Part shown: one piece after another, positions 20,451 to 57,119 of the stretch | Layout of the letters: each line of letters begins with the position of its first letter | How positions within the stretch are numbered: the stretch's first letter is position 1 | Assembly (NCBI GenBank): GCA_034509925.1 | Contig: CM067538.1 | Coordinates: 2,154,501 to 2,218,500, forward strand | DNA from: Hirudinaria manillensis | Lineage: Eukaryota; Annelida; Clitellata; Hirudinida; Hirudinidae | Direction: 5' to 3' | DNA length: 64,000 bases | The notes under the pieces: generated by a model | What the model saw: the letters and a program-made list of their open reading frames with translations, nothing else | The model's database searches: none | What the model was told of the DNA's origin: nothing | Program-made: the position numbers and the translations under genes

Positions 20451-20767
20451 CCTTAAAAATATTAAAAATATATATTGTTTTAATAGCATATGCCCGTTAC
20501 AGCGACATCATTCGCTAGAAACTAATTAATAATAATAATAATTAAATGACCTTCTATTGACGGATGTTGACGCTTTTCAAAACCTTGCTCGAATTTATAT
20601 AAGAAAACACCTAGCAAATAGATTATCTTGGCAAATCGAACGTCGAGCCGACTATAGTTAAATCGAATTCCCTTAGACCAATTTCCAATCAGGCTGCATT
20701 TATATTGCGTTGCGATATTGCGATATGGGAGATTAATGAAAAGCGTTTCTAATGACATAAAATATAT
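20451..20767. other. SRP5 upstream flank
   Basis: No gene is seen. From about 20,665 the sequence matches copy 1 from about 3,040, so the junction of the SRP5-containing segment with the duplicated block lies near 20,660. Confidence 0.55.
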
Positions 20768-20978
20768 TGTTGGATCCCTGGATCCAGATAATTGAAGAAT
20801 AATTAAAATTATATTGCTGATTAATTAATTTAGTAATTAATTAAATTTATTAAAATTTAATTATTAAATTAGATTCCAAGACGTAGACAATTGAGCATTG
20901 TACATCTTCCAAGCCATCTGAACACTTTCAATAAACCTGACCTTCCATAATTAGTTTGAGGACCACGGGTTATTACAA
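20768..20978. mobile_element. MITE copy 2 (211 bp, perfect TA duplication)
   Basis: Starts TTGTTGGATCCCTGGATCC and ends CGGGTTATTACAA, flanked by TA on both sides. The paralogous empty site at about 3,142 (in CATAAAATATATCTTTC) has one TA, which proves insertion and target duplication in this block copy. It is shorter than copies 1 and 3, lacking about 80 bp of the interior with the GAGAGAGCGAGAG segment. Confidence 0.88.
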
Positions 20979-21856
20979 TATCTTTCAATGTTAATCGTTG
21001 GTCCGAAAAAATATATTCGAGTGCATTTCCTACATAAATCAACATGTTAAATTATATATGATATATTTATTATATTAAACTATATATGAATGTTTGTCCA
21101 AAATTGTATCAAGTTAGCAAACTAAGTGCAAACTGATTTTTTATTGGGAGTATTTCTCTCCACCATTTTTAGTTTGCGATGTTTAAGTAGCACAAGTTAT
21201 GATTCCTAAGGTGTCGTGCATCGCAGTTAGACCAGAACGAGAAAATAATAAACAAAACATCGAGACGTTATCAACAATGAAAACCTTTCTTAGTTTAGAT
21301 ATTAACTTAAATTAATATTGCAATACTTTTTCTAACAAAGATTATTATTAATACAGCTATTATTAATGATATTGCTAATACGTTTTGTTACATCGTAAGC
21401 TATATAAATTTCAATCTACATATGGCACCGTAAGGTTATAATGTATATTAAACAACAAACAATTCAGAAGAAATATGATTAGGCACCTTTACTTCAAATA
21501 AAATCAATTTCAATAATATGGTCTTAAGCTAATCTTACAATAAGTGTAATATTTAAAATTTTAAATGAATTGTAAAAGTGAAAGAAATATGATTTAGGGT
21601 ATTAGAATCCCGTACGGACTAATAGACTTTGCAGGAAATTAGTGTCCCTATGTGCTGTTTGTCACTTTTATCAGGTGCCTACGTTAAACTAAAGTAAAAT
21701 CCTAGAAAAAAACTGCTCTTAAGTCAGGTTTTACCCTGTTCTCGGGTGCCCAAATTCTCAGGTTTTGTTGTATTTGTTTGCAACAATTCCGTTTATTTTA
21801 GCAACAAGTTGTGCTTTGTGCATCCAATTTTCATTTTTATTATCTTGTCAAATTTA
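20979..21856. other. Duplicated non-coding DNA between MITE 2 and LINE
   Basis: Matches 3,142-4,168 closely with small gaps. No gene is seen. Confidence 0.6.
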
Positions 21857-30716: not shown

Positions 30717-30815
30717 GTAAGATAATTCAAAAAATGGATCCAAACGAAGATGCTCTGTACATTTTATTGATCAATCAAGGTTTAAGAATTTCTGACCAAT
30801 CATTTCCATAATATA

Positions 30816-31109
30816 TTGTTGGATCCCTGGATCCAGATAATTGAAGAATAATTAAAATTATATTGCTGATTAATTAATTTAGTAATTAATTAAATTGAGT
30901 GGCAATATAATTTGAGAATTAATTAATTGGTACTATTCAGAGTCTTTGGTTATGAAGCTAGACAAATAGATTTATCTCGAAAAGAGAGAGCGAGAGTTAG
31001 AGAAACAGCAGATTTCAAGACTTAGACATTGCACATCTTCCAAGCCATCTGAACACTTTCAATAAACCTGACCTTCTATAATTAGTTTGAGGACCCCGGG
31101 TTATTACAA
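30816..31109. mobile_element. MITE copy 3 (294 bp)
   Basis: Starts TTGTTGGATCCCTGGATCC and ends CGGGTTATTACAA. TA precedes it, TG follows it, and the uninterrupted paralogue at about 7,732 reads CA at that place. The interior contains GAGAGAGCGAGAG as in copy 1. It is inserted just beyond the 3' end of SRP9 in the same orientation as copy 2. Confidence 0.82.
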
Positions 31110-31215
31110 TGTGTTGAATAAACGACCATCTGACAATTAATCTAAACATTCTAAAATGATGTCAGTTACAAGCATGTTATTTCACAAAATTGCATTAAAG
31201 ACTTTTTCCGATGAT

Positions 31216-33735: not shown

Positions 33736-34332
33736 GGGACCATACAAAACTGGAACAGTTCAAATACTAAGGTCGTTCACATAGCTTTAGCTAAGAACAA
33801 AACTGCAGGCTATGGAGTCTTTCGAAGATTGTTGAAAGAAATGGTTTCAAGGAATTCATCCAGACATTGGAACAAAGGTTAAAAGAAAATATTTTGTTAC
33901 AATGACAGACAAAATGGGATTATGCATTATACAAATTCATTGGAGGTTCAATTCAACTGAAAATTACGACAAGTTTTAGAATATTTATTAAACATAACGA
34001 AAACCGTTGTTACGATCTTATAGATTAAATAATCCTTAAAAATATATATCATCCGAATTTTTTAAAAAATACTAAAATATATTTTTTTTAATACACTGAT
34101 TTAATTTCCAAATAAATATATAAAAAAAATTCTATCGCAAAAAAAATTGATTGATTAAATTTCCTAATTAAATTAATCGATTATATTCAGAATCTTTTAT
34201 TACTACCTGCATCGGATTCGCCGGTTGATTCAGCAATTGAGCAGCAAATAGTTGTCGTTCGAAAAGAATTCGAAGTAATTACAGATACAACTAACCTCGA
34301 CAGCATCAGTCACTACAATCGAAGAAAACGAT
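33736..34332. other. 5' flank of CPSF3-like copy 1
   Basis: From about 34,022 the sequence is nearly identical to 39,318-39,628, which marks the left border of the duplicated CPSF3 unit. No TATA box is evident just before the start codon. Confidence 0.6.
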
Positions 34333-36355
34333 ATGGATTCCAAAAAAAGAGCGGCCGAAGAAATTGTTGTCAAAGAAGAGGAAAAGCTGACAATCCAGCC
34401 CCTGGGCGCAGGTCAAGAGGTAGGCAGGTCTTGCATCTACCTCAAGTACATGGGCAAAAAAGTGCTCTTGGACTGCGGCATCCACCCAGGAAGGACTGGC
34501 TACGAGGCGCTGCCGTACTTTGACCTCATCGAAGACGAGTTGAAAGACGTCGACCTCGTGTTAATCACCCACTTTCATTTGGACCACTGCGGCTCTCTGC
34601 CATATCTTTTGCTCAAGACCTCTTTTAAGGGCAGATGTTTCATGACCAGTGCCACGAAGGCCACTTACAGGTGGCTCCTAACCGACTATCTGAAGGTCAG
34701 CAATGCATCAGACAGGCTCTACGATCTGAACGACTTGATGGAGAGCATGGACAGGATCGAAACTGTCAACTTCCACCAGGAGAAAGAAGTCAACGGCATC
34801 AAATTCAGCTGCTACAAGGCCGGACACGTCCTGGGTGCTGCCATGTTCATGATAGAAATTGCAGGAGTCAGAGTACTTTACACGGGGGACTTTAGTCGAG
34901 TGGAAGATCGCCATCTTGTGGCCGCCGAAATTCCAAAAGAGACGCCCGACGTTCTCATCGTGGAGTCCACTTACGGTACGCATGCCCACGAACCCGTGGA
35001 AGAGAGGGAGAGGAGATTCACCAATCTCGTCCGAGATATCGTAATGAGAGGCGGTAGGTGCCTCATTCCCGTCTGCGCCCTCGGAAGGGCTCAAGAATTG
35101 CTTTTGATTTTGGACGAATTCTGGTCCGCACATCCGGAACTTCAGGGCATTCCCATACACTACGCTTCCTGCTTGGCAAAGAAGTGCTTGTCGATATACA
35201 AAAATTACGCGTTCTCTATGAACGAAAAGATTCAGAAAAGGATGAAGATTTCAGATCCGTTCGACTTTAAGCACATTTCATACCTCAGAAGCATCGACCA
35301 CTTTGACGACAACGGGCCGTCCGTGGTCCTGGCCAGTCCCGGCATGTTACAGAGCGGAATGTCGAGAGAGCTTTTCGACAAGTGGTGCGCCGACAAAAAG
35401 AACGGCGTCATCGTCGCGGGCTATTGCGTCGATGGTACCCTCGCCAAACAGATCCTTTCGCAGCCCGAAGAAATCGTGACCATGGGAGGGCAGAGGTTGC
35501 CCCTCAAGTGCTCGGTCGATTGCATCTCCTTCTCTGCGCACACCGACTACCGTCAGACGAGCGAGTTCGTGAGGTTAGTCAAGCCGAGACACATCGTTCT
35601 CGTCCACGGCGAGCAGAACGAGATGAGTAGAATGAAAACGGCTCTGACCAAGGAGTACTCCTATCCGACTGGGCACGTTCTCGACATCTACAATCCCAAG
35701 AACGGACATACAGTCGAACTGCCTTTTAAACAGCACAAGAGGATTAAAATTGTTGGCGAATTTGCCAAGAAGATCGAAAAAGGTGAATTGATGTCTGGGG
35801 TCATCGTAAGAGAGGACTTTAAATGTAGGATGGTTGCTCCTGCCGACGTTGCAAAGTTCACCAGCCTCCAGCCAGGTCTGATCATGCCTCGCATATCGTT
35901 GCCTTTCTCTGGGACTTTCGATCAGATCCACAGGCACCTCTCGAACGTTTGTAGGGACGTAGAGGTCCTAGGGACGTCCGACCCAAAAACCGAGATGAAA
36001 GTCTACAAGAACATTACCGTCACGGTTGGCCAAGGTACGATTTCTTTTCAGTGGATCCACAACAGACTCACAGACACACTGGCCGAGTCTCTGAACCAAG
36101 CCATCCTCTCCATGCCACAAGACATACTTGACATGCCGCTCAATGATTAAAAGTCGACGAGCAACATTGACTTGCTGAAGCCGAAATTTGAAGTGAATAA
36201 TCTGAAGAGATTTATATTGATTATTATTAATATTGGTAATAAAATGGAGATTAATCATTTAATAAATGAATAAATTTGAATCAATGAACTTGTCCCTCGA
36301 ATTCTATCAATTGTAAATAATTCAAGCTAACGATGACAGAAATGAAAATGTTACT
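34022..36355 (+). repeat. CPSF3 duplication unit, copy 1
   Basis: About 2.33 kb nearly identical to 39,318-41,650, covering 310 bp of 5' flank, the whole ORF and about 200 bp of 3' flank. Divergence in the flanks is low and visible mainly as single substitutions. The following serpins SRP10 and SRP11 are also paralogous, at about 5.4 kb spacing, so the original event probably included CPSF3 plus a serpin. Confidence 0.88.
34333..36150 (+). CDS. CPSF3: CPSF73-like 3'-end processing endonuclease, intronless copy 1
   Basis: A single 605-codon frame homologous to CPSF73, the metallo-beta-lactamase/beta-CASP endonuclease that cleaves pre-mRNA at the poly(A) site. Metal ligands are present: HFHLDH at residues 80-85, H165 in AGHVLGA, D186 in YTGDFS. 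The beta-CASP motifs are E211 in ESTYGT, H403 in SAHTDY and H425 in VHGEQNE. The protein stops at MPLND, where human CPSF73 (684 aa) continues for roughly 100 residues that pair with CPSF100, so this region is missing. No introns are present although nearby WDR75 has many. Base composition is clearly GC-richer than the flanks. It could be a retrocopy or an intron-poor native gene; no poly(A) tail is seen. It lies opposite in strand to the serpins. Confidence 0.92.
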
Positions 36356-36692
36356 ATTTTGAACCAAAATTATGGTTCCAAAACATGTTTTATGAATTTA
36401 TTATGAATGAAACGAAATTATGTTTATAATTAAATTGTAAATTGACATATATTTGCATTAACTCATTGCTAGATACTGAAACGATGTTCGATGCAGAAAC
36501 CAGAAGACTGGGCACCAGATGCTCAGGGCACTTTATTTTCCAAAAATAATCAACCACAAGATTTAGAATCTCATTAGTCATTTTCTTAATAATTTAAAAA
36601 TTTTAAAAGCAAAAATTTAATCAACATATGTCGTTAATAAGCAAGTGATTTCATGAACATTTTTATTAAAGACTTTTTTTTCCGAGGATATT
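36151..36692. other. CPSF3-like copy 1 3' flank and SRP10 3' region
   Basis: AATAAA-type signals occur on the plus strand (TTAATAAATGAATAAATTTG near 36,260) shortly after the stop codon. The remainder matches the region 3' of SRP11. No gene is seen. Confidence 0.55.
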
Positions 36693-38099
36693 TCAAGGCT
36701 GGGCATATCTTCCGAGGAATAGGATTGAACCGCTATCATGGTGTTTAATGTAAAATAGGAAGGGATGGTTGGCAATGAACGTTATTTTATGATCGGGAAT
36801 CATGACTGCCATCCTAAAAGATATCTCGACAGCAGTAGCTGCAGCAGCCACTGCCCCGGCTTCATCAATTTCGACAACTGCCTTGTGAACAGCTTTTGAA
36901 ATGTAGAGGTTCTTTGATTTCTCCATGCCGCTCAGATCTGCCTTGCCTCCGATAAACAAATCACGGATTCCAAGTTTCTGTAGATTGTCGGCCAAGTCGA
37001 AGCTCGACTCGATTTTAAATTTAGGAATTGTGAGATTTGCATATACAGAACTTAATGTGAGAGACTCGAGCTCACTCGCCGACAGCTTTTTTTCGACTTC
37101 CTGTAATGATGTTTTGGCCAGCGTTGGCAGGATTATACCGAAGCTCAAATCATGTGATTTGAAATCCTTTTCCAAAACTTCAAAATGAAGAGTCTTATGG
37201 ACGCCATAAAATGCTGTGGCTCCAGGATCGTGAAGAAATTTTGCCTTCACTGGATGTTGAGGCGTTGTGTAAAAAAGCTGAGGCTTTGTGTACTTTTTTT
37301 TAAAAAGTGAATCTCACTGAGCTTTGAAGTACAAGGCATTGACGAGGAAGACACGGGAATAACTGTTAAAGTCACTAGGATTGACAATACGTTTAATCTT
37401 CTTATTAGTCTTCTGTGACATCCACTGGTTTATTAAAGATGCACATTGCTTGCTTTTACTGTAATCAAAAAGCCAGTAAAGCTTAATATTAGTTTAAATA
37501 TTTTGCGCACAGTTTAAATCAACTTCTAAAAATGACGAAATTAAATGAAAAATTTCAACCTGAAGTCAACACTTTCAATATCCGAAGCGTAGATCTTTTG
37601 GCATGATTTCAGAAACGATGAGATGATTTCGTATCCATTCTGAACGTATAACTTGTTTGCGATGGTCACTTGACTGAATTCATCATTTCTGGAAAGGTCT
37701 TTCAAAAGTTGTTGAAAATGTTCGTGGATTTGTTTCTTTTTAAAGCCCCTGGCGAGCGTTGAACGAATTTCCTTCAAAGTTTGACCTTTGGCTCCAAGCG
37801 AAGTCATCGCAAATGCCAGAGAAATGCTTAAAGGAGAGAAAATGATGTTTCCCTGCTCTGTTTCCACGAACTTGTTGTACAATTTCAATCCAAAATCATT
37901 GTTAACAGTGACTAAGTTATCCACTTTACTCACGCTTTCTTTGGACACTGGCAATAGTATTTCGTTACCAGTTTATTTAATAAATTGTAATTAATTTGAT
38001 ATGACATTTTGATCACAACGTTTGCAAGCGCTGATAATGATGTCGCTTACCAAGTAGCAGCACCATCAATTGCAAAACAATTAATTTTATTTTGATCAT
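36693..38099 (-). pseudogene. SRP10: serpin with one nonsense codon at the conserved Trp
   Basis: Exons at 38,051-38,099, 37,560-37,947 and 36,693-37,458 have the same lengths as in SRP11 (apart from the signal peptide) and no frame change. The signal peptide starts MIKIKLIVLQLM. At 37,314-37,316 the codon after LYFKAQ is TGA where every other member has TGG, the breach Trp (Trp194 in antitrypsin numbering). Translation would stop after 193 codons. Downstream is open, with hinge DEAGAVAAAATAV, predicted P1-P1' Arg-Met and FIANHPFLF (Arg-Ala-Asp replaced by Ile-Ala-Asn). The single lesion suggests a very recent pseudogene, a segregating null allele or a base-call error. Confidence 0.75.
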
Positions 38100-38135
38100 T
38101 TTCTGTACTACATAAAATGGCTAAATTTGCTGTTC

Positions 38136-38147
38136 ACTTATATACAG
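38136..38147 (-). promoter_or_regulatory. TATA box of SRP10
   Basis: Minus-strand GCTGTATATAAG about 40 bp before the start codon, conserved with SRP9. Confidence 0.55.
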
Positions 38148-39159
38148 CACATAAAGAACGTTTTTAGGTTTTATGTCAAAAAGTTATGATCTAAATCTGA
38201 ACCGGATTATTGATTAACCCGTGGGGGTTAAAAATGATTTTATTAGTTATATCTCACACCCCAAAAATGGACCGCAGAAAAAAAATATATCCGAGCAGAT
38301 TTTATTTTATTCATCTTCTGCAAGATTAGGTGCATAAAAAGTTTTCATTCGCACCTTTGGAGCGAACTAACAGCAAGGGAAATTGTGTCCAGCTCCCCCA
38401 TGTGATTTCTGTATGCACCATTCACTCATCACACCACACTTATCCGACTACACCTTCAAATATCGGGAATATAATTTCTACGAAATCAAAATTAATGTTT
38501 ACAAATCTCTCCAAGTCGATAAAACAAATAATAATTCGTGCAATCGTGTCTTTTCAGCGAGAACAATTTAATGACTCCGGTAATATAACAAACAATGAGC
38601 TGGGATGGTTCGATACAAATTCTTCTGATTAAAAAAAGTCATTACATAACTTGAGGAACAGGAAGGAACTTTATTATGGTCTAATAATTTGATTCCCGTT
38701 GATCTACGATTCACATATATCACATAAGCTGTATTTCTTTTGGTGCGATAAATCAAATGTTAAATTGATACAACTAGGCTGGATCTAATACCGTCTCGAA
38801 TGAAATTCTCCCAATGATGTCTTCTAAAAGCCCGAGTTTATCGACATCTGATGTAAAGCTTAACATTATTTGGAACGATAAAACCTAAAATTCGGACAAA
38901 TCTGGGCAAAAATGGCTACAGCTGTCACCGATCCAATTTCGTACTTACCAGAGCCGGAGTTGACATTTCGTAAATTCACATTAAGAATATGATCATTTAA
39001 AATATTTAATAAAAATCACTACCATAGTGTTTAATTTGTAAATATGTTATCTTACATTAAATCAATTTATGGCGATAATTTCATTCATTACGATGTAATA
39101 ATAATCATAATAATAATAAAGTCAAAGCAATCAAACAAAAAAGAGAGAGCAGAAGCAAA
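38148..39159. other. SRP10 upstream flank
   Basis: Matches the SRP9 upstream region (32,740-33,500) at moderate identity. A short run of AAT repeats occurs near 39,098-39,118. No gene is seen. Confidence 0.55.
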
Positions 39160-39300
39160 AGTCCGAATCTCACGTTTAATGATGTGACCAAAGCATTTGA
39201 TTCGGTTTCTCATCAATCGATTGTATGAGCAGTCCACTGGGAAGTCCACCATTCATGCTGAAATACATTTCAGAGGCCAAGCGCGACCGGTCAACTGAAA
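39160..39300 (+). mobile_element. Reverse transcriptase relic
   Basis: Plus-strand reading VTKAFDSVSHQSI, a non-LTR reverse transcriptase motif (YDVxKAFDSVxH), followed by a stop after Ile-Val. In another frame GSPPFMLKYISEAKRDR continues in LINE-like style. This is a decayed fragment of roughly 45 codons, located just outside the left border of the second CPSF3 unit at about 39,318. Confidence 0.6.
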
Positions 39301-39317
39301 ATTTGGGCAAATTTTTT

Positions 39318-41650
39318 AGACTAACTAATCCTTCAAAAAATATGTCATCCGAATTTTTTAAAAAATACTAAAATATATTTTTTTTAATACACTGATTTAA
39401 TTTCCAAATAAATATATAAAAAAAATTCTATCGCAAAAAAAATTGATTGATTAAATTTCCTAATTAAATTAATCGATTATATTCAGAATCTTTTATTACT
39501 ACCTGCATCGGATTCGCCGGCCGAATCAGCAATTGAGCAGCAAATAGTTGTCGTTCGAAAAGAATTCGAAGTAATTACAGATACAACTAACCTCGACAGC
39601 ATCAGTCACTACAATCGAAGAAAACGATATGGATTCCAAAAAAAGAGCGGCCGAAGAAATTGTTGTCAAAGAAGAGGAAAAGCTGACAATCCAGCCCCTG
39701 GGCGCAGGTCAAGAGGTAGGCAGGTCTTGCATCTACCTCAAGTACATGGGCAAAAAAGTGCTCTTGGACTGCGGCATCCACCCAGGAAGGACTGGCTACG
39801 AGGCGCTGCCGTACTTTGACCTCATCGAAGACGAGTTGAAAGACGTCGACCTCGTGTTAATCACCCACTTTCATTTGGACCACTGCGGCTCTCTGCCATA
39901 TCTTTTGCTCAAGACCTCTTTTAAGGGCAGATGTTTCATGACCAGTGCCACGAAGGCCACTTACAGGTGGCTCCTAACCGACTATCTGAAGGTCAGCAAT
40001 GCATCAGACAGGCTCTACGATCTGAACGACTTGATGGAGAGCATGGACAGGATCGAAACTGTCAACTTCCACCAGGAGAAAGAAGTCAACGGCATCAAAT
40101 TCAGCTGCTACAAGGCCGGACACGTCCTGGGTGCTGCCATGTTCATGATAGAAATTGCAGGAGTCAGAGTACTTTACACGGGGGACTTTAGTCGAGTGGA
40201 AGATCGCCATCTTGTGGCCGCCGAAATTCCAAAAGAGACGCCCGACGTTCTCATCGTGGAGTCCACTTACGGTACGCATGCCCACGAACCCGTGGAAGAG
40301 AGGGAAAGGAGATTCACCAATCTCGTCCGAGATATCGTAATGAGAGGCGGTAGGTGCCTCATTCCTGTCTGTGCCCTCGGAAGGGCTCAAGAATTGCTTT
40401 TGATTTTGGACGAATTCTGGTCCGCACATCCGGAACTTCAGGGCATTCCCATACACTACGCTTCCTGCTTGGCAAAGAAGTGCTTGTCGATATACAAAAA
40501 TTACGCGTTCTCCATGAACGAAAAGATTCAGAAAAGGATGAAGATTTCAGATCCGTTCGACTTTAAGCACATTTCATACCTCAGAAGCATCGACCACTTT
40601 GACGACAACGGGCCGTCCGTGGTCCTGGCCAGTCCCGGCATGTTGCAGAGCGGAATGTCGAGAGAGCTTTTCGACAAGTGGTGCGCCGACAAAAAGAACG
40701 GCGTCATAGTCGCGGGCTATTGCGTCGATGGTACCCTCGCCAAACAGATCCTTTCGCAGCCCGAAGAAATCGTGACGATGGGAGGGCAGAGGTTGCCCCT
40801 CAAGTGCTCGGTCGATTGCATCTCCTTCTCTGCGCATACCGACTACCGTCAGACGAGCGAGTTCGTGAGGTTAGTCAAGCCGAGACACATCGTTCTCGTC
40901 CACGGCGAGCAGAACGAGATGAGTAGAATGAAAACGGCTCTGACCAAGGAGTACTCCGATCCGACTGGACACGTTCTCGACATCTACAATCCCAAGAACG
41001 GACATACAGTCGAACTGCCTTTTAAACAGCACAAGAGGATTAAAATTGTTGGCGAATTTGCCAAGAAGATCGAAAAAGGTGAATTGATGTCTGGGGTCAT
41101 CGTAAGAGAGGACTTTAAATGTAGGATGGTTGCTCCTGCCGACGTTGCAAAGTTCACCAGCCTCCAGCCAGGTCTGATCATGCCTCGCATATCGTTGCCT
41201 TTCTCTGGGACTTTCGATCAGATCCACAGGCACCTCTCGAACGTTTGTAGGGACGTAGAGGTCCTAGGGACATCCGACCCAAAAACCGAGATGAAAGTCT
41301 ACAAGAACATTACCGTCACGGTTGGCCAAGGTACGATTTCTTTTCAGTGGATCCACAACAGACTCACAGACACACTGGCCGAGTCTCTGAACCAAGCCAT
41401 CCTCTCCATGCCACAAGACGTACCTGACATGCCGCTCAATGATTAAAAGTCGACGAGCAACATTGACTTGCTGAAGCCGAAATTTGAAGTGAATAATCTG
41501 AAGAGATTTATATTGATTATTACTAATATTGGTAATAAAATGGAGATTATTCATTTAATAAATGAATAAATTTGAATCAATGAACTTGTCCCTCGAATTC
41601 TATCAATTGTAAATAATTCAAGCTAACGATGACAGTAATGAAAATATTAA
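39318..41650 (+). repeat. CPSF3 duplication unit, copy 2
   Basis: Nearly identical to 34,022-36,355; the start codons are 5,296 bp apart. Differences in the 5' flank are few (for example GGTTGA against GGCCGA). Confidence 0.88.
39629..41446 (+). CDS. CPSF3: CPSF73-like endonuclease, intronless copy 2
   Basis: The same 605-codon frame as copy 1, with all metal-binding and beta-CASP residues at the same positions. By eye the proteins differ at three places: residue 444 is Asp instead of Tyr, and near the C-terminus Gln-Asp-Ile-Leu has become Gln-Asp-Val-Pro. About ten further differences are synonymous. At residue 444 human CPSF73 reads REYEDNDE, so Asp here may be closer to the ancestral state. 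The C-terminal CPSF100-binding part is missing here too. Whether both copies are expressed, and whether a full-length CPSF3 exists elsewhere, cannot be seen. Confidence 0.92.
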
Positions 41651-42136
41651 CAATTAATTAATTTATTTATTTAAACAACAAACAGGTTCTCACCGCAAAG
41701 TACGTTATCAACTTTCTAATCCATTGGCAAAGATATTAATAATAAACATAATTTAAACCGATCCATTTGCATTATTCAGTTTCTTTTACATGATTTTACA
41801 AATGTATATTTTTATTGTAATTGATATCGTAAGATTATTGATAATTCGCCAGCAAGAAGTTCTTTTGTTTTACCTTTGATTTCAATATCACTTAAATTAT
41901 AATAATTTGCATACATTTGCAGTTACTCACTATGCTAGAGATTTCCAAACGTAGAATATAGAAACTAAAAAGATGCTCTCGCCATTTTATTTTGCAAAAA
42001 TATTTAATCGCGAAGAATTAGAAACTGGTCAGTCATTTTTTTAATAATTTAAAATAGCCAAAAATTAATAACAGATGTCGATAATAAGCAAGTAATTTCA
42101 TTAAGTTTTTACAAAAGACTTTTTTCCGCGGGTATC
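41447..42136. other. CPSF3-like copy 2 3' flank and SRP11 3' region
   Basis: The match to copy 1 ends near 41,650. The remainder is AT-rich with the same TATTTCAAGGCTGGGCATATCTTCC stretch that encodes the serpin C-terminus. No gene is seen. Confidence 0.55.
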
Positions 42137-43592
42137 TCAAGGCTGGGCATATCTTCCGAGGAAAAGGATTGAGCCGCTATCATGGTGTTTAATGTAAAAT
42201 AGGAAAGGATGGTCGGCTCTGAACGTGATTATATGATCAGGAATCCTGGCTGCCATCCTAACAGATGCCTGGACAGCTGTAACTGCAGCAGCCACTGCCC
42301 CGGCTTCATCAATTTCAACAACTGCCTTGTGAAGAGCTTTTGAAATGTAAAGGCTCTTTGATTTCTCCATGCCACTTAGATCTGCCCTGCTCATGTCGAA
42401 CAAATCACGGATTCCAAGTTTCTGAAGATTCGTGGCCAAGTCGATGCTAGACTCGATTTTAAATTTTGGAATTGTTAGGTTTGCATATACAGAATGCAAT
42501 GCAAGAGACTGGAGTTCACTTGCTGACAGCTTTTCTTCGACTTCTTGTAATGAGGTTTCTGCCAATGTTGGCAGAATTACACCGAATCTGAAATCATTTG
42601 ATTTGAAAGCTTTTTCCAAAACTTCAAAATGAAGAGTCTTGTGGACGCCATAAAATGCTTTGGATTTCGGATCATTAAGAAACTCTGTCTTCACTGGATT
42701 TTTTGGAGTACTGTAAAATTGTTCAGATTTTGTCAACTCTGTTTTAAAAATCGAAGCCCATTGAGCTTTGAAGTACAAGGCATTGACGAGGAGGACACGG
42801 GAATAACTGTCAAAGTCAGTAGGATTGACAATACGCTCAATCTTCTTGTTGGTTTTGTCAGATACCCACTGGTTTATTAAAGACGCACATTGCTCGCTTT
42901 TACTGTTATAAACAAAAACAAAGGCATAATATTAATATATCACATATTAATTTGAATATTTTTTCACATAAACCACTGTCTGAAAATGAGGGGAATTAAA
43001 TGTAAAATTTAAACCTGAAGTCAACACTTTGAAGATCCGAACTGTAGATTTTTTGGCACGATTCCAGAAACGATGAAAGAATTTCAAAACCTTTCTGAGC
43101 GTATAACTTGTTTGCAATGCTCACTTGACTGAATTCATCATTTCTGGGAAGGTCTTTCACAAGTTGATGAAATTGTTCATGGATTTCTTCCTCTTTGAAC
43201 CCAGAGGCAAGTGTTGAATGAACTTCTTCCAATGTTTGACCTTTGGCTCCAAGCGAAGTCATCGCAAACGCCAGAGAAATGCTTAAAGGAGAGAAAATGA
43301 TGTTTCCCTGCTCTGTTTCCACGAGCTTGTTGTAAAATTTCAATCCAAATTCATTATTAGCGGTGACTAATTTATCCACTTCGCCCGTGCTTGTCTTGGA
43401 GACTGGTGAAAATTGTCGTAATTAAGTAGCATTTCGTTTATGGTTTCTTTATTAAAATTATTAAAAAGTTACTCAAATAATTTTATAAATAAAACATTAC
43501 AAATATTTTGTTTTATTTATATAACTGTAGCACTCACCAAGAAGCAGTACAAACAATTGCAAAAGCGCAAATGTCATTTTGACCTTTTTCAT
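42137..43592 (-). CDS. SRP11: secreted serpin, intact, predicted P1 Arg
   Basis: Exons at 43,538-43,592, 43,015-43,402 and 42,137-42,902 give 402 aa in frame. The signal peptide starts MKKVKMTFALLQLFVLL, with a second Met at position 6. Exon 2 has GNIIFSPLSIS. Exon 3 has INQWVSDKT, LYFKAQW (Trp intact, unlike SRP10), FRFGVILP and hinge DEAGAVAAAVTAV. P1-P1' is Arg-Met in ASVRMAAR. It ends GRYAQP. A non-coding first exon near 43,757-43,785 with donor GGG|GTAAG and TATAAATA at 43,792-43,804 is supported by conservation with SRP12. Confidence 0.9.
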
Positions 43593-56525: not shown

Positions 56526-57119
56526 CTAGTTTGTATACTTGATGAACAGCTCAACGTGAAGAAGTCCGAATTGATCCTCGTACAAGGTCTGGACGTAGTG
56601 CTCTCCGCTAACCAAGTGGTAATTGGAAAAGCCAGGGATCTGTACAAACGGACCGTCAGAACAAGACATGAAAACGGCTTCGACGATACATTCGATGGCC
56701 ATCAAAGGAAATCGTACGATCTCCTGGAAAGGCAAGTACAATTCGTGATTGCCGAAAACCTTGGTACCCCCGAAATCTGCGAATATGACGAGGCTTTCCG
56801 TCGCTCCGCAGTTCATGGTTAGGGCCCTATAGAATCGGCCGCCATGCTTGACAACGCACAAGGTGTTCGGGGTGAAGGGATGGGGTAAGCATTTCGGTGC
56901 GCCCAGGGCAGCGTATCTCAAGTCCAGAGCGACTATGTTCTTCATGCATTCTTCGTACGATTCGTCAATTTTCTGGACGAAAATTTGATCATAGTTGACT
57001 ATGCTCGTCACGTTGACCTTGTTCAGGACGCCATGGTCCAGCTGAGGTCTTCGGACTTGGTAGCTCAAGTCAGAAAAAACGTATTGTTTGCGATAGGGTT
57101 TTGTATATCTCGATGCCAT
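56526..57119 (-). CDS. Single-exon Tudor-domain protein
   Basis: A 197-codon frame with one extended Tudor-like domain. Recognisable elements are CVVKHGGRFYRAL (strand 1-2 with the aromatic cage position), LVIFADFGGTKVF (corresponding to VxFVDYGN, with Phe for Tyr and Gly for Asn) and FPLMAIECIVEAV (usually P..A..C.L). Tudor proteins bind dimethylarginine, often in piRNA/germ-granule factors; here the cage is incomplete by eye, so binding is uncertain. The N-terminus MASRYTKPYRKQYVF is basic and unlike known TDRDs to me. There is no intron in an intron-rich neighbourhood. It could be a full small gene, a retrocopy, or one exon of a larger gene. Confidence 0.7.
   Translation of the reverse strand: MASRYTKPYRKQYVFSDLSYQVRRPQLDHGVLNKVNVTSIVNYDQIFVQKIDESYEECMKNIVALDLRYAALGAPKCLPHPFTPNTLCVVKHGGRFYRALTMNCGATESLVIFADFGGTKVFGNHELYLPFQEIVRFPLMAIECIVEAVFMSCSDGPFVQIPGFSNYHLVSGEHYVQTLYEDQFGLLHVELFIKYTN

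Follow-up and report, generated by a model that had tools for sequence, protein, structure and literature searches.

A window of 64,000 nucleotides from the annelid Hirudinaria manillensis (assembly GCA_034509925.1, contig CM067538.1, positions 2,154,501 to 2,218,500 of the forward strand) holds two intronless paralogues of CPSF3, the gene for the nuclease CPSF73. A first-pass annotation of this window had described two intact, intronless 605-residue open reading frames (ORFs) on the plus strand, and we confirm both, copy a at 34333–36150 and copy b at 39629–41446. Every metal ligand and beta-CASP motif named in that annotation is kept in copy a: HFHLDH at residue 80, H165 (AGHVLG at 163), D186 (TGDFS at 184), E211 (VESTYG at 210), H403 (SAHTDY at 401) and H425 (LVHGEQ at 423). 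RMMBL and beta-CASP domains were detected in the window genes, and the top match among solved structures is human CPSF3 (799 bits over residues 12–594); the same search gave 342 bits for IntS11 and 128 bits for CPSF100, and we therefore rejected IntS11 as the identity of these genes.

Each gene lies with its 5' and 3' flanks in a duplicated unit on the plus strand (copy a, 34015–36353; copy b, 39311–41649; 98.85% identity), and two AATAAA hexamers were read by eye 3' of copy a (36261–36274), with their equivalent at 41557–41570 in copy b. The coding sequences differ at 13 of 1818 bases, ten of them synonymous, with the three replacements at residues 444, 598 and 599. The ratio of nonsynonymous to synonymous divergence (dN/dS) is 0.08, and so few replacements are improbable under a simple neutral model (P = 3e-5). 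As the noncoding part of the unit differs at 14 of 521 bases (2.7%), near the synonymous rate of 2.6%, while replacements are suppressed, the coding sequence of the pair is under purifying selection. The stop codon at 36148–36150, which had been queried, appears to be real: copy b has the same stop at 41444–41446, and the synonymous excess gives the pair no look of decay. On the shared stop, the ten synonymous differences and the low dN/dS we rejected pseudogene status.

A search of the genome located a full-length CPSF3 of 689 residues with three phase-0 introns (spliced model) on contig C2 at 6.22 Mb. We accordingly rejected the reading of the window genes as a shortened form of the normal gene, and the earlier suggestion that they are extra to a housekeeping CPSF3 stands: the window CPSF73 genes are real, selectively constrained and additional to the normal gene. 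With three introns in the C2 parent and none in the copies on C13, they have the structure of retrogenes. Identity between the window paralogue and the C2 gene is 76% over residues 1–250, 74% over 251–375, 79% over 376–465 and 46% in the C-terminal domains. Synonymous divergence of paralogue from parent is saturated or nearly so for CPSF3, and likewise for the CPSF2 and poly(A) polymerase (PAP) genes described below; the saturation indicates that the CPSF3 retrocopies are old. All 12 of the 12 paralogue ORFs checked are open.

The missing C-terminus

Both window proteins stop near the junction of the C-terminal domains CTD2 and CTD3. The Pfam family CPSF73-100_C (PF11718) was matched at profile positions 2–112 and 2–113 of 215 in the two copies, and the profile search of the genome matched 2–114 in the window genes against 1–209 in the intron-bearing CPSF3, which runs on into CTD3. 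The window proteins align to human CPSF73 residues 5–587, and extrapolation puts their end at about human residue 598. In known complexes, CPSF73 dimerises with CPSF100 through CTD1 and CTD2, while Symplekin docks on CTD3, whose key residue is the equivalent of human Met617 (PMC10688271). We infer the human CTD2/CTD3 boundary through the equivalence of E. cuniculi Val589 with human Met617. With a stop near residue 598 and Met617 within CTD3, the alignments indicate that the window proteins retain the CPSF100-pairing domains CTD1 and CTD2 and have lost the Symplekin dock.

The first-pass annotation had taken the missing end for the part that binds CPSF100, which is wrong: about half of PF11718 is matched, and what is lost is the Symplekin-binding CTD3. 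Its picture of a catalytic core freed from CPSF100 is likewise unsupported, given that the pairing domains are kept and that CPSF100 itself has six intronless paralogues. The broader proposal of a specialised nuclease survives in part; it is plausible for extra, intact and constrained copies, without the separation from CPSF100.

Intronless paralogues of other 3'-end processing subunits

We surveyed further families by domain-profile searches of the source genome, with intron counts from spliced models where stated; for CCT/HSP60, the C8 CstF77 loci, Symplekin, IntS11 and CSTF2, "multi-exon" describes broken matches rather than gene models. Six intronless CPSF100 (CPSF2) genes of 712 residues were found on C1 through PF10996, five of them forming a 2547-bp tandem array and the sixth lying some 250 kb off. 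The array copies show no coding differences (four of the five compared whole, the fifth over 2137 of 2139 bases), and the lone copy differs from them at 43 bases. The spliced model of their C9 parent contains 15 introns, against none in the C1 genes, which again is the structure of retroposition; its exon 4/5 junction is not GT-AG, and the codons there were removed before dN/dS was calculated. The paralogue has a region (YPKLSKR.CPMFP) that, by our reading of the alignment, would be the PIM, by which CPSF100 links the nuclease module to CPSF160-WDR33 (PMC9570436). It ends in FFVTL where the parent ends in FFVMI, both hydrophobic; the CPSF100 C-terminus is described as conserved in length and hydrophobic at its end (PMC10688271).

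CPSF160 has two intronless genes, of 1352 residues (C5, 7.03 Mb) and 1317 residues (C13), and the genome domain searches found no intron-containing CPSF160. A candidate parent at C9:2.858 Mb was rejected, because its spliced alignment covers only 98 residues and 39 of 39 solved relatives are DDB1. The C5 gene is probably the housekeeping one, since no intron-containing CPSF160 was found and the upstream element described below is absent from it; it may be a retrogene that displaced its parent. For PAP there are a three-intron parent, whose start codon is not fixed, two intronless genes (525 and 642 residues) and a weak fourth match at C5:11.39 Mb; for FIP1, four ORFs without introns (399, 515, 338 and 195 residues) stand alongside a single short-frame locus. 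CstF77 is represented by two loci in pieces and intronless ORFs of 665 and 403 residues, the latter partial, besides weaker HAT-repeat matches on C4, C5 and C9. The multi-exon-type CstF77 is itself present twice on C8, at 0.95 and 1.02 Mb, about 70 kb apart. An intronless CPSF30 frame matches CPSF4 at 131 bits, its alignment starting at human residue 56. CSTF2 has two loci, and Symplekin, sought only by its C-terminal domain, has a single locus, in pieces.

Among the control genes, the splicing factor SF3B3 has an intact intronless paralogue of 1205 residues at C1:1.43 Mb, 80% identical to its ten-intron parent (model). No intronless paralogue of IntS11 or DDB1 was found in the domain searches; an IntS11-like gene, so named by our own reading of the matches, lies in pieces on C8. 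For CCT/HSP60 there are nine loci, all in pieces, and two intronless chaperonin-like ORFs that are weak hits and match only PF00118. Intronless genes of this kind thus occur in six of eight 3'-end families searched by domain and, with SF3B3, in one of 12 control genes (one-sided P = 0.0044), or in three of 12 if the two weak chaperonin-like hits are counted (one-sided P = 0.040, a weak result), in a post hoc test whose controls are few, self-chosen and in some cases added after the pattern had emerged. Three RNase_PH loci of indeterminable intron status were excluded from the controls; a superseded count that included them gave 1/15 and 3/15 (P = 0.0017 and 0.017).

A shared upstream element

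An identical core-promoter-like element, ATATTCAGAATCTTTT, lies on the plus strand 150 bp before the ATG of each window gene, at 34183–34198 for copy a and 39479–39494 for copy b. This sequence also stands in the 5' flanks of unrelated genes. Its 15-mer TATTCAGNATCTTTT occurs within 250 bp of the ATG in 14 of 16 upstream regions (ten with no mismatch, two with one, two with two), the regions not being independent genes, since three come from CPSF2 and both copies of CPSF3 are among them. The two misses are CPSF160-C5 (four mismatches) and CSTF2-C10 (five). Among shuffled upstream regions (n = 3200), 0, 0.03 and 0.7% reach 0, 1 and 2 mismatches. The element precedes none of four intron-bearing parents within 250 bp (4–5 mismatches), and the best match over 700 bp has four.

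The carriers among the 3'-end genes comprise CPSF73 (two genes), CPSF100 (six), CPSF160 (one), CPSF30 (one), FIP1 (four, two of them with a weaker form), CstF77 (two, one partial) and PAP (two). The C5 CstF77 gene carries the element at −146, and the SF3B3 paralogue a one-mismatch form at −100. A relaxed pattern run over 62 loci gave 25 matches, all in intronless genes of this set or in the long terminal repeat (LTR) pair described below; the 37 loci without it include ten multi-exon-type loci (not all reaching the promoter), CPSF160-C5, the FIP1 genes C2b and C8, and the two chaperonin-like ORFs. In its context an AT-rich stretch ends in TATTCAGNATCTTTT and a GC-richer stretch follows, an arrangement that would suit a start of transcription at a TCA initiator. 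Against a viral source, neither six peptide patterns of the CPSF73 protein nor the element in a 19-bp version found a match in a set of viral contigs, a weak test.

Across the genome the exact 15-mer TATTCAGNATCTTTT occurs at 449 sites, against two for its reversed control and an expectation of 2.7 (composition) or 4.0 (first-order model); the window has it at the two CPSF3 genes and nowhere else. Our survey of these sites covers 100 of the 449. Among these 100, 52 stand in same-strand pairs 4.8–5.6 kb apart, some of them within the CPSF2 and other arrays, and 48 are not in LTR-like pairs. The one pair opened, C1:5431560–5436859, consists of LTRs of about 220 bp, 99.5% identical, bounding an element of about 5.3 kb, with primer-site-like and polypurine-like sequences adjoining the LTRs (by eye); the exact 15-mer and its AT-rich lead-in sit inside the LTR. 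About 20 further pairs of similar spacing are present among the 100 sites. The two window elements (34184 and 39480) are 5296 bp apart, within the LTR-pair spacing, which is probably coincidence because a serpin-like gene lies between them.

Both of the non-pair sites that we opened lead to frames open to the end of the 601–701 bases read. One belongs to four same-strand sites about 1.65 kb apart (C2:6348985–6353957), the first of which precedes a ubiquitin-conjugating enzyme E2 frame (PF00179); the other, first among the sites listed, precedes the CPSF30 frame. Compared with the one LTR pair, gene promoters match only in the element and a low-complexity AT stretch, and the sequence downstream of the element varies from gene to gene. 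A 40-bp stretch resembling an LTR lies next to the CPSF2 array (L009:871–910).

Genomic surroundings of the gene pair

The serpin stretches beside the two CPSF3 units (36517–37951 and 41971–43406) share 83.8% identity, against 98.85% for the units themselves, a gap that indicates that the CPSF3 unit was duplicated later than the serpins or has been homogenised. We therefore rejected a serpin-linked duplication, and the earlier statement that the genes were copied with the serpin cluster is unsupported. Minus-strand serpin-like copies, about 71–93% alike in pairwise comparison, extend over window positions 1000–47000, and the one ORF tested matches PF00079. LTR-like fragments lie among them near 1528–1836, 20764–20979 and 30810–31113, and a Tudor-domain ORF of 197 residues occupies 56526–57119 on the minus strand (PF00567, 31 bits).

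A candidate second cleavage-and-polyadenylation machine

On balance we favour the explanation that the window nuclease genes belong to a co-regulated, retrogene-encoded second pre-mRNA cleavage-and-polyadenylation machine, which may act in the germline. The intronless subunit genes would be expressed together through the shared core-promoter-like element, perhaps in germ cells. The paralogous nuclease (CPSF73') would pair with the paralogous CPSF100' through CTD1 and CTD2, the conserved PIM would tether CPSF100' to a platform of CPSF160', CPSF30' and FIP1', and FIP1' would recruit PAP'. Lacking CTD3, CPSF73' would not dock on the single housekeeping Symplekin and could form a spare nuclease kept apart from the somatic pool. 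The joint assembly of the paralogues, the independence of CPSF73' from Symplekin, the role of the element as a promoter and the co-expression of its carriers are all predicted from gene sequences. Because a retrogene usually arrives without its promoter, the recurrence of one 15-bp element ahead of genes from different families suggests that a single programme of expression has been selected for.

Precedents favour a second, perhaps germline, machine. tau-CstF-64 (CSTF2T) is encoded by a retrotransposed gene, acts in male germ cells and promotes expression of intronless small genes (PMC3482194), and PAPOLB is a testis-specific intronless gene (PMC3287031). The TCE is a core promoter element common to Drosophila testis genes (PMC3439415), and a large share of Drosophila retrogenes in the set studied is expressed in the testis, with transposons apparently no substantial source of their regulatory regions (PMC2413143). 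Titles and abstract openings in one literature collection described no second or retroposed CPSF set.

We also consider, tentatively and with considerable doubt, a stronger form: a dedicated second machine built by serial retroposition under one core promoter, serving transcripts of that promoter class, including those of the LTR retrotransposon, with the lineage's 3'-end formation insulated from the somatic machine by the loss of the Symplekin dock.

Several observations weigh against a second machine. The set carrying the element is wider than 3'-end processing, as the SF3B3 paralogue and the four-site E2 array show, and the family comparison is post hoc. CPSF160-C5 is intronless yet without the element; the second CSTF2 locus (C10), with an intron by our reading of the matches, also goes without it; and FIP1 C2b and C8 have two-mismatch forms only. 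The parents might hide the element behind introns in their 5' untranslated regions, 700 bp having been scanned. WDR33, CstF50, CFIm, CFIIm, RBBP6 and any CPSF30 parent fall outside the search set, so the intronless CPSF30 may be the sole CPSF30 gene, and it seemingly lacks ZF1, judging by the start of its alignment. Comparison of the tandem CPSF2 copies with the solo copy gives a dN/dS of 0.47, only mild constraint, and the germline site is suggested by analogy alone.

A rival explanation is a general retrogene programme, in which many intronless genes share one core promoter, the 3'-end factors are a slice of them, and the paralogues swap singly into the normal complex. SF3B3 and the E2 array carry the same element, there are 449 exact sites genome-wide, and 48 of the 100 listed lie outside LTR-like pairs; against this stand the excess of 3'-end over control families (P = 0.0044, or a weak 0.040, both post hoc) and the fact that one of the two opened non-pair sites proved to be CPSF30. 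We hold this reading to be possible, if on the doubtful side. That the LTR retrotransposon of about 5.3 kb donated the promoters, the genes being retrocopies that it captured or switched on, seems unlikely to us: the 15-mer and its lead-in do sit inside the LTR, many of the 100 listed sites are same-strand pairs about 5.2–5.5 kb apart (one opened), and an LTR-like fragment lies beside the CPSF2 array, but homology at the genes is confined to the element and the AT stretch (one LTR pair compared), the sequences downstream differ, and a core promoter used by genes and LTR alike is simpler.

A role in histone pre-mRNA cleavage, an example offered by the first-pass annotation, or in another specialised, Symplekin-dependent cleavage draws on the presence of CPSF73 and CPSF100 in the histone cleavage complex as well (PMC9570436). 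That complex, however, also contains Symplekin (PMC9570436), whose dock CTD3 is missing here, and the FIP1, CPSF30 and PAP genes of the set belong to polyadenylation, which makes such a role very unlikely. Hardly credible, finally, is the view that these are non-functional retrocopies left intact by chance or gene conversion; the coding identity of the tandem CPSF2 genes, as from recent amplification or conversion, and their mild constraint relative to the solo copy would suit it, yet all 12 checked ORFs are open although synonymous divergence from the parents is saturated or nearly so, the window pair shows a deficit of replacement changes, and the same element stands before different genes.

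Relation to known systems and significance

Like mammalian CSTF2T and PAPOLB, the proposed second machine would consist of intact, intronless, retroposed variants of 3'-end factors, with constraint measured for the window pair. Unlike those two, which concern one CstF subunit and one PAP, it would span CPSF160, CPSF100, CPSF73, CPSF30, FIP1, CstF77 and PAP, several of them multicopy, with one promoter-like element in common. It resembles the CPSF nuclease module (mCF/CCC) in its active-site motifs, in CTD1–CTD2 and in the PIM-like region of CPSF100, but its CPSF73' is without the CTD3 Symplekin dock in a genome with one Symplekin locus. The element is, like the Drosophila TCE (PMC3439415), short, A/T-rich and common to many genes; it is 15 bp rather than 10 bp, has another sequence and also occurs in an LTR. 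Yeast Syc1 of the APT complex likewise belongs to the CPSF73 family with its domain composition altered, and it defines a separate 3'-end complex (PMC10688271); it consists of CTD2/CTD3-like domains, whereas the window genes keep the nuclease with CTD1–CTD2 and lack CTD3. Integrator's IntS11 shares the nuclease superfamily, but the window genes belong with CPSF3.

Mammals are known to have germline versions of individual 3'-end factors, whereas the duplicate set proposed here would cover most of the subunits examined and share one promoter-like element. If the favoured explanation is true, this genome would be a natural test case for duplication of the tail-making machine as a unit, and for nuclease function without Symplekin docking. 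It would also show how retrogenes of different origin acquire a common promoter, and the 15-bp element, with its 449 exact sites, would provide a handle for listing the whole retrogene programme.

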